Part shown: positions 56,788 through 61,381 of the stretch, one piece after another
Layout of the letters: every line of letters starts with the position of its first letter
Position numbering within the stretch: position 1 is the stretch's first letter
From: Kribbella turkmenica
GTDB taxonomy: Bacteria; Actinomycetota; Actinomycetes; Propionibacteriales; Kribbellaceae
Direction: 5' to 3'
Length of the DNA: 64,000 bases
NCBI RefSeq assembly: GCF_004348725.1
Contig: NZ_SMKR01000010.1
Coordinates: 1 to 64,000 of the forward strand
Made by a program: the position numbers and the translations under genes
Notes under the pieces: model-generated
What the model was told of the DNA's origin: nothing
The model's input: the letters and a program-made list of their open reading frames with translations, nothing else
Databases searched by the model: none

Positions 56788-57588
56788 GTGTCTGTCTCTT
56801 CTGTTCCTTCCTTTGAGGTCGCCCCGGTCGTGGACCGGTTGCGGGCGGCCGGCTGTGTGTTCGCCGAGGACGAGGCCGCGCTGATCGCGTCGACCGCCCG
56901 GGACCAGGCGGAGGCTGCCGTCATGGTCGGCCGCCGGATCGCCGGGCTTCCGCTCGAGCACGTTCTCGGCTGGGCGTCGTTCCGGGGGCTGCGGATCGCA
57001 GTCGATCCGGGGGTATTCATCCCGCGTCGTCGTACCGAGCTCCTGGTGGCCGAGGCGCTGCGGGTGACCGCGCCGGGGGCCGTCGTTGTCGACCTGGGGT
57101 GCGGGTCCGGTGCGCTCGGTGCGGCGGTCGCGGCCGAACGGCCGGTCGAGTTGCACGCCGCGGACATCGAATTGGCCGCGGTCCGCTGTGCGCGACGCAA
57201 CCTCGAGCCTCGGCTGGGTCATGTCTACCAGGGCGACCTGTTCACGGCGCTACCTGCCGAGCTGCGTGGCCGGATCGACGTTCTGCTGGCCAACGTCCCC
57301 TACGTTCCGACGAACGAGATCCGTCTGTTGCCTCCGGAGGCGCGCCTCTACGAGCCGCACGTGACCCTGGACGGCGGTCCGGACGGCCTCGCGACCCTGC
57401 GCCGGGTCGCCGCCGGGGCGACCGGCTGGCTGGCGCCCGGCGGTCACGTGTTCGTCGAGATGAGCGAGCACCAGGCACCGCTCGCCCGGGCCGTACTTGC
57501 CGACCACGGCCTGACCGCGCGGATCACCACCGACGACCAGCTCGGCGCGAACGTTGTCAGCGGCACCAAACCTCAGGCGACCGCGTAG
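56788..57588 (+). CDS. PrmC/HemK-like protein (putative N5-glutamine methyltransferase)
   Basis: This 266-residue protein has GLPLEHVLGWASFRGLRIAV then VDPGVFIPRRRTELLV, as in PrmC, then SAM motif VVVDLGCGSGALG (about residues 93-105). The catalytic NPPY motif reads LLANVPYVPT (about residue 167), the variant of a PrmC-related actinobacterial subfamily. PrmC methylates the GGQ glutamine of release factors; the partner of this subfamily is unknown. GTG start with AAGGG 5 nt upstream. It overlaps the convergent TetR remnant by 16 bp. Confidence 0.85.
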   Translation: MSVSSVPSFEVAPVVDRLRAAGCVFAEDEAALIASTARDQAEAAVMVGRRIAGLPLEHVLGWASFRGLRIAVDPGVFIPRRRTELLVAEALRVTAPGAVVVDLGCGSGALGAAVAAERPVELHAADIELAAVRCARRNLEPRLGHVYQGDLFTALPAELRGRIDVLLANVPYVPTNEIRLLPPEARLYEPHVTLDGGPDGLATLRRVAAGATGWLAPGGHVFVEMSEHQAPLARAVLADHGLTARITTDDQLGANVVSGTKPQATA

Positions 57589-57928: not shown

Positions 57929-59911
57929 TCAGACCCGCCGCTGGACGCGCAGGAGGTACTCGCGGCGGTGCAGCGGGTCGTGGTCTGTCCGTGGGCGCTC
58001 CGGAATCGGGCCCGTCACCGGCTGGTAGCGCTCGAACGCCGATTCCAGCACGCCCTCGCCCCGGGTCAGGGCAGGAAGCTGCTGTTCGAGCTGGTAGACG
58101 GCCGCCGCGGGGATCTCTCCTTCGAGGCTCGAGGTCTGGGCCGCCGGCGCCGGGACCTGTGGGATCGCCCGGAGCCGGGCCAGCGCGGCCAGTACGGCGC
58201 GCGTCGTGTCGGTCGGGATCTCCAGCCGGAACCGGTGCATCGGCTCGTGCACCGTCGTACCGGCCCGCCGGAGCGCGGTCATCAGCACGAGTGGGGTGAG
58301 GAGACGGAAGTCGCCGGCCGTGCTCGACATGCTCTTGTCGAACACGGCATGCGCGTGACTCTGCCGCGCCGAGTAGCCCGAGTGCGTCATCACCACCCGC
58401 GCGTCCGGTATCTGCCAGCCGTGGATGCCCTGCCCGAGCGTCGCCCGGACGGTCTCCTCGACCGCCTTGATGAACGCGTACGGCATCGACCCGAGCTCGA
58501 CCTCGAGCTCGAACGTCACCCCGGCGTTCACCGGCGCCGGCTCGACCCGCAGGCCGACCGTGGCCAGGAACGGGTTCGGGTCCTTCTTGTTGAACTCGAC
58601 GGCCTGCCCGGGGCCGTCGATCCGCTCGACGCAGATCGTGGTCGTCTCCCGGAAGTCGACGCCGATCCCGAACTCGGTCGCCAGCGTCGTCTGGATGACC
58701 TCCTTCTGCACCTCGCCGTACAGCGACACGTAGGTCTCCTGCCGCAGGTCGTCCTGGCGCAGGTTGATCAGCGGGTCCTGCTCGGCCAACTGGATGAGGG
58801 CGACCCGCAGGTTGCCCTTGTCGGACGGCCGGACCGGCGAGATCACCGTCTCCAGCGTCGGCGGTGCGAAGAATCCACCGGTTCTCGTGCTCGGCTCCTC
58901 CTCGGTCGAGCTGATCCGGTCGCCGATCTGCACGTCGGCCAGACCCCACAGCTTGCCGATCTGACCGGCCCGGACGGCGTCGGTGGTGCGCGGCGCACCG
59001 AAGACCTCCAGCGCGGTCAGCTTCGCCTCACCGCCGTCGCCGAACCGCAGCCGGTCGCGGACGTGCGCCGTACCGGAGAACATCCGGACGTACGCGACCT
59101 TCTCGCCCGCCGCACCCCGCTCGACCTTGAAGACCGAGCCGTCCACCGGGCCGTCGACGTCGGTCGGTGCCGACGGGAGGAACTCCCGGATGCCTTCGGT
59201 CAGAGCATCCGTGCCTGCGCCCGTGATCGCGGAACCGAAGTACACCGGGTGCACGAGGGCCTGCTTCGTCTGTACGGCGAGCCGGCGTCGCAGGCCGTCG
59301 TACTCCAGCGCGTGCTCGTTCTCCACGAAGGTGGCCAGCAGTTGCTCGTCGTTCTCCGCCAGCACTTCGAGCAGGTCGCCGTACGGATCGTCCGGGCCGT
59401 ACGGCGTGAAGGTCGCCGACCGTGTCCCGAGACCGCCGGCCGAGCCCATCGGCACGATCGCGGCCGAAAGCTTGTCCGCGATCGACTTCAGCAGCGGCTC
59501 GTACTGCGCGCCGGGCCGGTCGGTCTTGTTGACGAAGATCAGCGCCGGGATGCGCAGTCGCCGCAGCGTCCGCATCAGCACGCGGGTCTGCGCCTGCACG
59601 CCCTCGACCGCCGAGATCACCAGTACGGCGCCGTCGAGCACGCTGAGCGCCCGCTCCACCTCGGCGATGAAATCCGGGTGACCGGGAGTGTCGATCAGGT
59701 TGACCGTGACGTCGCCGATCGGGAACGAGACGACCGCCGACTTGATGGTGATCCCGCGCTGGCGTTCGAGCGCGAGGGAGTCGGTCTGGGTGCTGCCGTC
59801 GTCGACGCTGCCGATCTCGTCGATCACCCCGGCGGCGTAGAGCAGCCGCTCGGTCAGGCTCGTCTTACCGGCGTCGACGTGGGCCAGGATCCCCAGGTTC
59901 AGTAATTTCAC
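57929..59911 (-). CDS. Tet(M)/OtrA-like ribosomal-protection GTPase
   Basis: This 660-residue translational GTPase starts KLLNLGILAHVDAGKTSLTE (P-loop), with DTPGH (G3, about residue 75), NKTD (G4, about residue 129) and EF-G-like domains II-V. Length and full-length resemblance fit Tet(M)/Tet(O)/OtrA proteins, which expel tetracycline from the ribosome. The tip loop of domain IV reads DKSMSSTAGDF where Tet(M) has SPVSTPADF, so the proline important in Tet(M) is absent. It may confer resistance to a related inhibitor or be a ribosome-rescue factor. GTG 59911 is set by homology; its initiation region is buried in a structured leader. Confidence 0.92.
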   Translation of the reverse strand: MKLLNLGILAHVDAGKTSLTERLLYAAGVIDEIGSVDDGSTQTDSLALERQRGITIKSAVVSFPIGDVTVNLIDTPGHPDFIAEVERALSVLDGAVLVISAVEGVQAQTRVLMRTLRRLRIPALIFVNKTDRPGAQYEPLLKSIADKLSAAIVPMGSAGGLGTRSATFTPYGPDDPYGDLLEVLAENDEQLLATFVENEHALEYDGLRRRLAVQTKQALVHPVYFGSAITGAGTDALTEGIREFLPSAPTDVDGPVDGSVFKVERGAAGEKVAYVRMFSGTAHVRDRLRFGDGGEAKLTALEVFGAPRTTDAVRAGQIGKLWGLADVQIGDRISSTEEEPSTRTGGFFAPPTLETVISPVRPSDKGNLRVALIQLAEQDPLINLRQDDLRQETYVSLYGEVQKEVIQTTLATEFGIGVDFRETTTICVERIDGPGQAVEFNKKDPNPFLATVGLRVEPAPVNAGVTFELEVELGSMPYAFIKAVEETVRATLGQGIHGWQIPDARVVMTHSGYSARQSHAHAVFDKSMSSTAGDFRLLTPLVLMTALRRAGTTVHEPMHRFRLEIPTDTTRAVLAALARLRAIPQVPAPAAQTSSLEGEIPAAAVYQLEQQLPALTRGEGVLESAFERYQPVTGPIPERPRTDHDPLHRREYLLRVQRRV

Positions 59912-59975
59912 AGAGCTTCATGTCCCTTGAACAGGTGTCAGTGGTGGCTTCGACAGACATGAAGCGAGCTCGCAT
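59865..59975 (-). CDS. Upstream frame overlapping the Tet-like gene start (leader peptide candidate)
   Basis: ATG at 59975 has AAAGGGG 7 nt upstream and begins MRARFMSVEATTDTCSRDMK. The frame ends at TAA 59865, 45 nt inside the GTPase gene in another frame (36 residues). Codons 4-7 cover one arm of a hairpin that masks the GTPase start. Ribosome pausing here would free that start. Not similar to a protein family I know. Confidence 0.45.
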   Translation of the reverse strand: MRARFMSVEATTDTCSRDMKLCEITEPGDPGPRRRR

Positions 59976-60005
59976 CGCCGCGCCCCTTTCACTCGACACC
60001 TGTTC
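59915..60005 (-). promoter_or_regulatory. Probable translational attenuator with interleaved inverted repeats
   Basis: In mRNA order the arms are A GAACAGGTGTC (60005-59995), C GCTTCATGTC (59965-59956), B GACACCTGTTC (59939-59929) and D GACATGAAGC (59924-59915). A pairs perfectly with B (11 bp) and C with D (10 bp). The pairs interleave, so they are alternative folds or a pseudoknot. D overlaps the end of the AAGGGA Shine-Dalgarno (59928-59923) and the spacer before GTG 59911. C lies in codons 3-7 of the upstream frame. Confidence 0.7.
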
Positions 60006-60068
60006 GGACGTCCCCGAGTACACCAGAACCCACCTGACCGCTCAACCCGTTTTCCCTGCCCTGACGGA

Positions 60069-60675
60069 ATGCCGCCCGACACCCGGACACCCCTGACCGA
60101 AGCCGACGCCGTCACGTACGCCACGGCCGCCGTCGGCCCGATCGCCCACGTCGAGCCTGTGCAGGGCTTCGCCGGCAACCGAACCTTCCGCCTGCACACC
60201 GCCGCCGGCCCGGTCGTCTACCTGAAAGCAGGCGCCTCCGTCGAGGACGAAGCGCGTACCTGCGAGCTCGCCCGCGCGGCCGACGTACCGGCGCCGAGAA
60301 TCCTGCACGTCGAGCCGGCGTACCTGCTTGCCGCGGAGGTGCCTGGCGGCCCCTCGGCCTCTGCGGCCGTCCTCACCCAGGCCGACCTGCACCCGCGGCA
60401 GTCGTACGCCGTCGGCGACGACCTGACGGGCATCATCGACTGGGGCGACGCCAGGTACGGCGATCCGCCGTTCGACATCGCCTGGTTCACGATGTCGGGC
60501 TCGGCGGCAACCGGGGCGCTGCTGGCCGGCTACGTCGTCGAGCTCACCGGGCTGGACCGGACCATCTCGATGTACCGGGCTCTCTCGGCACTGATGGCGA
60601 TCCACGCGAAGCACGCCACCGGAGGAGAATGGATCGTCCCGCACATCACGACAATCGAAGCCGGGTTGGCGGGTC
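60069..60675 (+). pseudogene. Aminoglycoside-phosphotransferase-like gene with internal deletion
   Basis: The N-terminal lobe (FAGNRTFRLHTAAGPVVYLK, about residue 35, holding the ATP-contact Lys) is followed directly by the catalytic segment ADLHPRQSYAVGDDLTGIID then WGDARYGDPPFD. In this family HGDLHP and the IDWGD motif normally lie after another 70 or so residues; the linker and helical region are missing. The Gly before Asp in HGDLHP reads QADLHP. The frame lacks its natural stop and runs on to 60962 antisense to pyrH. Likely inactive. Confidence 0.7.
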
Positions 60676-61381
60676 AGTTGATCAGAGTGCCGAGCTGGGC
60701 GCCGGTCGCGATGGTGGAGGCGGCTGACGGGCGGTCGATGTCGAAGACGTGCAGGGGGAGCTGGTGGTCGCGGGCGAGGATGAACGCCGACTGGTCCATG
60801 ACCTCGAGATGGCGCGCGATCACCTCGGCGTACGTGAGGTGGTCGAAGCGGATGGCCGCCGGGTTCTTGTTCGGGTCGGCGTCGTACACGCCGTCGGTGC
60901 CGTTCTTGGCGACCAGGAGGGCGTCGGCGCCGAGCTCGACCGCACGCTGGACGGCCGGGTAGTCGGTGGTCGTGAACGGCTGGCCGTTGCCGCAGGCAAG
61001 CAGGACGATCGACCCCTTCTCCAGGTGCCGGAGTGCTCGCAGCCGGATGTACGGCTCGGCGAGGCTGTCGATCGGGATCGCGGTCATCAGACGTACGTCG
61101 TCCGCGCCCAGGGCCACGAGCCGTCCGCGCAGCAGCACCGCGTTGATCACGGTGCCGAGCATGCCGATGTTGTCCGCCTCGACCCGGTCGATACCCCAGT
61201 CGGCGGCGCGGTTCCCGCGGAACACGTTGCCGCCGCCGACGACGACCGCGACCTGCACCCCGGTCGCCCGCAGCGCAATCACCTCGGTGGCCAGGTGGGT
61301 GAGCCGGTCGCTGTCGAAGCCGAAGTCGTTCGGGCCGGCGATCGCCTGACCCGACAGCTTGAGCACGAGCCTGCGGTACAT
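60674..61381 (-). CDS. UMP kinase (PyrH-type)
   Basis: This 235-residue amino-acid-kinase-fold protein starts RRLVLKLSGQAIAG, has VAVVVGGGNVFRG (about residues 44-56), GTVINAVLLRGRL, the uridylate-binding CGNGQPFTTTDYPAV (about residue 130) and LVAKNGTDGVYDADPNKNP. It phosphorylates UMP to UDP. The essential pyrH normally lies between tsf and frr; none is here, so this is probably an additional copy. Internal residue QA at the P-loop-like start (LSGQAI versus LSGEAL) differs from the usual. GGAGAGGGG precedes ATG. Confidence 0.92.
   Translation of the reverse strand: MYRRLVLKLSGQAIAGPNDFGFDSDRLTHLATEVIALRATGVQVAVVVGGGNVFRGNRAADWGIDRVEADNIGMLGTVINAVLLRGRLVALGADDVRLMTAIPIDSLAEPYIRLRALRHLEKGSIVLLACGNGQPFTTTDYPAVQRAVELGADALLVAKNGTDGVYDADPNKNPAAIRFDHLTYAEVIARHLEVMDQSAFILARDHQLPLHVFDIDRPSAASTIATGAQLGTLIN

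Follow-up and report, generated by a model that had tools for sequence, protein, structure and literature searches.

Translation of a ribosomal-protection-type GTPase gene of Kribbella turkmenica appears to be governed by a short leader frame that overlaps the gene and by a hairpin whose two arms, C and D, mask its ribosome-binding site (RBS). The C:D pairing is kept by compensatory change across actinomycete lineages, as expected of a functional helix. In our view the probable explanation, at roughly 70%, is translational attenuation through a single hairpin: the leader overlaps its target, and ribosomes that stall on its first codons would open the structure. As in translational attenuators generally, the leader open reading frame (ORF) has its own RBS and the RBS-sequestering helix is conserved by compensation. 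A sequence-only reading of this DNA had proposed a translational attenuator of the erm type, with four arms; the overlapping leader and the masking of RBS arm D by arm C, backed by covariation, stand, but the four-arm scheme is not supported as stated.

Positions given here refer to the window, the whole 64,000-nucleotide stretch analysed, and all elements of the leader lie on its minus strand. The arms follow the order A-C-B-D on the message, 5′ to 3′, and the two helices are interleaved. Arm A (GAACAGGTGTC, 60005-59995) forms an 11-bp perfect inverted repeat with arm B (GACACCTGTTC, 59939-59929), and arm C (GCTTCATGTC, 59965-59956), which spans leader codons 4-7, forms a 10-bp perfect repeat with arm D (GACATGAAGC, 59924-59915). 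Arm D sequesters the end of the GTPase Shine-Dalgarno (SD) sequence (AAGGGA, 59928-59923) and the spacer before the GTG start at 59911; the gene itself, recognised by homology, occupies 57929..59911 and encodes 660 aa. The leader ORF of 36 aa (MRARFMSVEATTDTCSRDMKLCEITEPGDPGPRRRR*) runs from an ATG at 59975, behind its own SD (AAAGGGG, 59989-59983), to a stop at 59865 that lies 47 nt inside the GTPase gene in the window copy, and its position and phase are matched in orthologues. The leader ATG and the GTPase start are 64 nt apart. The sequence-only reading had described both perfect repeats, the coverage of the SD end and spacer by the last arm, and a short frame with its own RBS that crosses C and ends within the GTPase gene, and we confirmed each of these. 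Among dinucleotide-preserving shuffles of the same 151 nt, a repeat of at least 10 bp occurs in 1% and one of at least 11 bp in 0.1%, and the interleaved 10+11 pair occurs in 0 of 2000. Folding stability is an uninformative measure for this leader (z of −1.14 for the whole 151 nt, which is not unusual, and −1.54 for the hairpin), and an Rfam scan matched no family. A 52-aa ORF from a GTG at 60023 was set aside as the leader; its start lies above the predicted transcription start, and the ATG at 59975 is preferred.

When compared with solved structures, the 660-aa protein matches TetM at 2.7e-105 over residues 1-652 and the best EF-G at 1.8e-60, which places it nearer over the full length to the Tet(M)/Tet(O) type than to elongation factor EF-G. 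In NCBIfam, Otr(A) is the best-scoring model, but its score of 722.5 is below the cut-off of 900, and the tet_protect score of 677.5 is likewise below the curated cut-off of 775. Given these scores, we leave the drug open and call the protein a ribosomal-protection-type GTPase. Its nearest relatives among the named loci are from Kribbella species. The window genome also carries a second GTPase paralogue (L066; G000:C66:59462-60062), 57% identical and cut by a contig end, with a leader frame beginning MRR, an offset of 91 nt and C:D pairing not clearly above shuffles. Around the GTPase gene we observed a short APH-type phosphotransferase ORF (60069-60962, plus strand; Pfam APH matches only profile positions 165-228), which is divergent from the GTPase gene and whose final ∼95 codons lie antisense to a gene for UMP kinase (PyrH; 60674-61381, minus strand). 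A gene for a PrmC-related N5-glutamine methyltransferase (56788-57588, plus strand; TIGR03704 above cut-off) is convergent to the GTPase gene.

The leader is preceded by a predicted promoter of the WblC/WhiB7 type. Such promoters have a GAAAWY box 3 nt before the −35 element, a spacer of 16-19 nt, and a transcription start 7-8 nt after the −10 element (PMC7157823). The window sequence GAAAAC GGG TTGAGC N17 TGTACT (60054-60017) has all of these sequence features: GAAAAC (60049..60054) matches the box and lies exactly 3 nt before TTGAGC (60040..60045), taken as the −35 element from the consensus, and a 17-bp spacer separates this from the predicted −10 element TGTACT (60017..60022). By the same rule (PMC7157823), transcription is predicted to start at 60009..60010. 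The earlier proposal depended on a start no further downstream than 59975, and the predicted start lies upstream of both A and C. A strict version of the promoter pattern occurs upstream of 45 of 76 non-redundant leaders and in none of the control stretches. The location of a WblC-type promoter just upstream of the leader is consistent with the report that WblC directly targets tetM (SCO0783) in Streptomyces coelicolor (PMC7157823). WblC/WhiB7 would probably increase GTPase transcription alongside the opening of the RBS by stalled ribosomes.

The leader frame and its geometry are widely conserved. All 30 same-genus loci examined have the frame, with exactly 54 nt and no indel between the leader ATG and the ATG of arm D, and in these the leader ends 32-47 nt inside the GTPase gene. 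In a further sample of 60 loci from other families and of paralogues, most orthologues are preceded by a leader frame, and in most the leader SD is of the AAGGAG type. An offset of 94 nt from the leader ATG to the HxDAGKT codon of the GTPase is common to 69 fetched loci and is found in 66 of 79 named loci, including those from Streptomyces, Nonomuraea, Amycolatopsis, and Jiangella. Distant paralogues have offsets of 88, 91, 100, 106, 112, and 115 nt, all 1 mod 3, such that the phase is kept. The C:D helix, together with the 64-nt distance from leader ATG to GTPase start, recurs in Kribbella, Streptomyces, Nonomuraea, Amycolatopsis, and others. In eight named loci no leader was called at first pass: upstream sequence is missing for L196, codon 2 is Cys in four and Leu in L164, and L204 and L186 do carry the element, with a changed frame or a longer gene start. 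A DNA pattern with exact spacing matched only the window among 395 genomes of the class and was too strict; a covariance model of the leader, used in its place, matched 38 of the 395 once each, in most cases at the GTPase gene, and found matches in 41 of 151 genomes of the G386 family. Copies of the GTPase and leader also appear in bins assigned to distant taxa, namely two Rubrobacter MAGs (L162, L181), a Phenylobacterium MAG (L190), and a Chloroflexia MAG (L205), and reflect either mis-binning or horizontal transfer.

Compensatory change in the C:D helix is apparent from several lines of evidence. Among 46 leaders that share less than 90% identity and align without gaps, 83.6% of the C:D cells hold standard pairs; sliding the partner lowers this to 31-49%. 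Six pairs are changed on both sides, and a register with a one-base bulge is paired in 82.8%. A column-by-column covariation ranking was dropped because G-U noise dominated it. Instead, we swapped D arms among sequences, a test chosen because the C:D register shifts between clades. Native C:D pairs have a mean of −21.4 kcal/mol versus −19.5 kcal/mol for swapped partners, and 0 of 20000 permutations were as good, although the sequences are phylogenetically related and permutation counts of this kind overstate significance. The non-genus set alone gave the same outcome; within the genus alone, the near-invariance of the arms left the test without significance (6796 of 20000). Separate compensations can also be seen by eye: GGG/TCG in the L040-L050 group, CACG/CGTG in L064, A-U for G-C in L019, a shifted AGC/GCT in L027, ACTC/GAGT in L033, and G-C for A-U in L228. 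Arm covariation in orthologues, whose absence the sequence-only reading had named as refuting it, is present for C:D across clades. The helix is not recognisable in the distant paralogues L063, L065, L082, and L091, and in L067 the C:D test failed in the stretches covered, which left out a pairing noticed by eye. We limit the hairpin claim to orthologues above ∼60% identity plus L064 and L080.

The leader is also found in front of a different kind of gene. In five loci of another family (L212, L213, L228, L239, and L242), it precedes ABC exporters (PF00664 and PF00005); C:D is intact in these copies, the promoter is similar, and the start codon lies about 61-64 nt away. That geometry and overlap are kept over unrelated coding sequence argues for functional importance, and the presence of the leader before ABC exporters in five genomes indicates that it behaves as a module. 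Chance repeats next to an ordinary conserved RBS would fit the near-invariance of the arms within the genus, where pairing is little tested, but this explanation is hardly credible in view of the shuffles, the covariation across clades, and the recurrence of the element before these unrelated genes.

Predicted opening energies suggest how the helix could act on translation. These replaced a measure of unpaired probability that proved weak and suffered from confounding by A:B. In native sequences the mean predicted cost of opening the GTPase RBS is 15.5 kcal/mol, and with arm C scrambled it is 8.6 kcal/mol, the native cost being the higher in all 46 of 46 sequences, and with a ribosome footprint on leader codons 1-9 the predicted cost is 7-8 kcal/mol. 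We propose that without drug the leader would be translated quickly, C:D would re-form behind the ribosomes, and the GTPase would be poorly translated. A ribosome-targeting drug, most simply a tetracycline, would arrest a ribosome at the start of the leader or within its first codons. Tetracycline stalls Escherichia coli ribosomes at start codons with their 3′ edge at +16 to +18 (PMC12121999). Arm C lies at +10 to +19, as expected of a leader of the toiL type (see below); most of it would be hidden beneath the downstream edge of the stalled ribosome, leaving D free. A second ribosome could then load at the GTPase start, 64 nt downstream, a distance that leaves room for both.

Two other modes of control bear on the same features. 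In simple translational coupling, leader translation would itself unwind C:D, leaving the GTPase constitutively on with no drug sensing. The leader frame indeed extends across both the RBS and the start codon of the GTPase and is kept, and the amino acid sequence of the loop peptide is not conserved. Coupling nevertheless seems unlikely to us: leaders terminate 32-47 nt into the gene, beyond the reach of ordinary re-initiation, a ribosome positioned over the RBS blocks it, and coupling has no need for the Arg at leader codon 2, which is kept through both CGN and AGG codons. The second mode is transcription attenuation, the mechanism that regulates WhiB7/WblC genes, wblC itself included, and Enterococcus tet(M) (PMC7157823, PMC5418344). 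We consider it very improbable here, where the hairpin covers the RBS and where no terminator-like site, including the stem with a T run of the Tet(M) type, was found in the leader; control is more likely to be translational for the latter reason.

The A:B repeat raises the possibility of an attenuator that switches between A:B and C:D, with stalling of a ribosome allowing the former helix to form and releasing D, as in the four-arm erm logic of the sequence-only reading. The A:B repeat occurs in 22 of the 34 same-genus loci, with some compensatory differences; swapped partners were as good in 24 of 20000 permutations over all 34 loci and in 632 of 20000 within the 22. In nested folding from the transcription start, A:B wins over C:D in A-bearing loci and RBS opening costs 5.7 kcal/mol, whereas in loci without A the RBS is closed (17.8 kcal/mol) and a ribosome opens it (11). 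Such folds exclude pseudoknots, and as interleaved helices A:B and C:D could coexist as one, without necessarily excluding each other. The comparison of alternative folds that the earlier reading had suggested yields the A:B alternative with an open RBS, but not the closed C:D state: folded from its predicted 5′ end, the window copy forms A:B rather than C:D and its RBS is open with or without a leader ribosome. Moreover, a translating ribosome would free B before D, and A:B should re-form first. Arm A is absent from 12 of the 34 same-genus loci and no equivalent of it was seen in the other genera examined, whereas C:D is retained throughout. Because A:B is confined to 22 of 34 same-genus loci and is not part of the conserved design, the four-arm logic as originally stated is not the core of the system; C:D alone is the conserved element, and we regard the alternating scheme as doubtful. 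A:B is a lineage-specific addition that competes or coexists with C:D, and in the window's subclade it most likely stabilises the open state. An exclusive switch is a possibility for this A-bearing subclade only.

The leader peptide offers a further view of what is sensed. Codon 2 is Arg (CGC, CGA, CGT, or CGG) in all 76 non-redundant leaders of a set selected for a CG start, and three ABC leaders encode Arg2 by AGG. Replacements of Arg2 were seen by Cys (L143, L149, L157, and L209), Leu (L164), or Ser (L239). Leaders from the window and many Kribbella begin MR[PSA]RF, and the +X+ motif of MRxRF is one that we take to resemble the ErmDL macrolide arrest peptide, such that stalling could depend on the nascent peptide, for example through a macrolide. 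Across the 76 leaders, position 4 is Arg in just 11 and Ala in 34, which departs from an ErmDL-like conservation of R-x-R, and a +X+ reading of MRARF as a family feature was rejected. Codons 8-15 show no excess of third-position variation in the same set, which argues against selection for a longer peptide; a long conserved leader peptide was likewise rejected. Peptide-specific arrest is thus quite improbable, and the data fit ribosome sensing at the start and first codons better. In Streptomyces-type leaders (e.g., L034, L037, and L042), codons 9-11 place a stretch of purines resembling an SD, CAGGAAGGA, within the hairpin loop, and amino acids Q9 and G11 follow from it; the stretch is common in several genera.

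Taken more broadly, we lean towards the view that start-stalled ribosomes are sensed by an undescribed, ancient actinomycete attenuator module, with an overlapping Met-Arg leader and a fixed 64-nt distance. Beneath WblC, this module would add a second layer of control, at translation, to intrinsic resistance genes: those for ribosomal-protection GTPases and, in certain lineages, those for ABC exporters. If so, WblC-controlled intrinsic resistance genes of Streptomyces and its relatives would carry a second drug-sensing layer in their mRNA, which would help to explain gene-specific responses from one regulon driven by many drugs. The leader element is compact, of fixed geometry, and apparently portable between GTPase and ABC targets. 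We found no prior report of it in the openly licensed papers searched; older subscription papers on otrA could hold one. Control of ribosomal-protection genes by leaders, as in tetQ and tet(M) (PMC5418344), is already known, as are upstream ORFs (uORFs) that sense ribosomes at start codons.

The closest parallels fall into several types. The tetQ attenuator of Bacteroides belongs to a different phylum and has no WblC promoter, unlike the leader described here. We know of no overlap between the tetQ leader and its target. Like our system, it is described as leader control over the translation of a ribosomal-protection GTPase, responsive to tetracycline (Wang et al. 2005, as cited in PMC5418344), but its leader has about four codons (as cited in PMC12121999). 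Enterococcus tet(M) likewise has a tetracycline-responsive leader region before a ribosomal-protection gene, but works by transcription attenuation (Su et al. 1992, as cited in PMC5418344), whereas no terminator was found here. In ermC-type attenuators, too, a stalled leader ribosome exposes a hidden RBS (PMC5418344); these use alternative structures and peptide-specific arrest, in contrast to the one conserved helix and target-overlapping leader seen here. In the toiL uORF of E. coli topAI, as here, the start of the uORF pairs with a downstream SD, and a ribosome that tetracycline stalls at the uORF start codon frees that SD (PMC12121999). The toiL uORF is unrelated in sequence to our leader, controls a toxin-antitoxin operon of E. 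coli with Rho coupling (PMC12121999), and is not known to overlap its target. Short uORFs at whose start ribosomes stall also regulate ABCF genes, both in S. coelicolor and in clostridia (PMC12421871, PMC10201436). The cplR uORF, MR[I/M], and S. coelicolor are5sc/tiaA resemble our system in stalling at the start region and in controlling resistance genes, cplR also shares Arg at codon 2, and an anti-SD helix is a further common feature; these leaders differ in having three to nine codons, ABCF targets, and partly transcriptional control (PMC10201436, PMC12421871). S. coelicolor tetM (SCO0783) is a probable orthologue of the window GTPase with the same promoter type, for which the available part of the source reports only transcriptional control and mentions no leader frame (PMC7157823). 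The suggestion that overlap of leader and target makes this a new design is supported in that the overlap is conserved, but the working principle itself has precedents in toiL, tetQ, and cplR.
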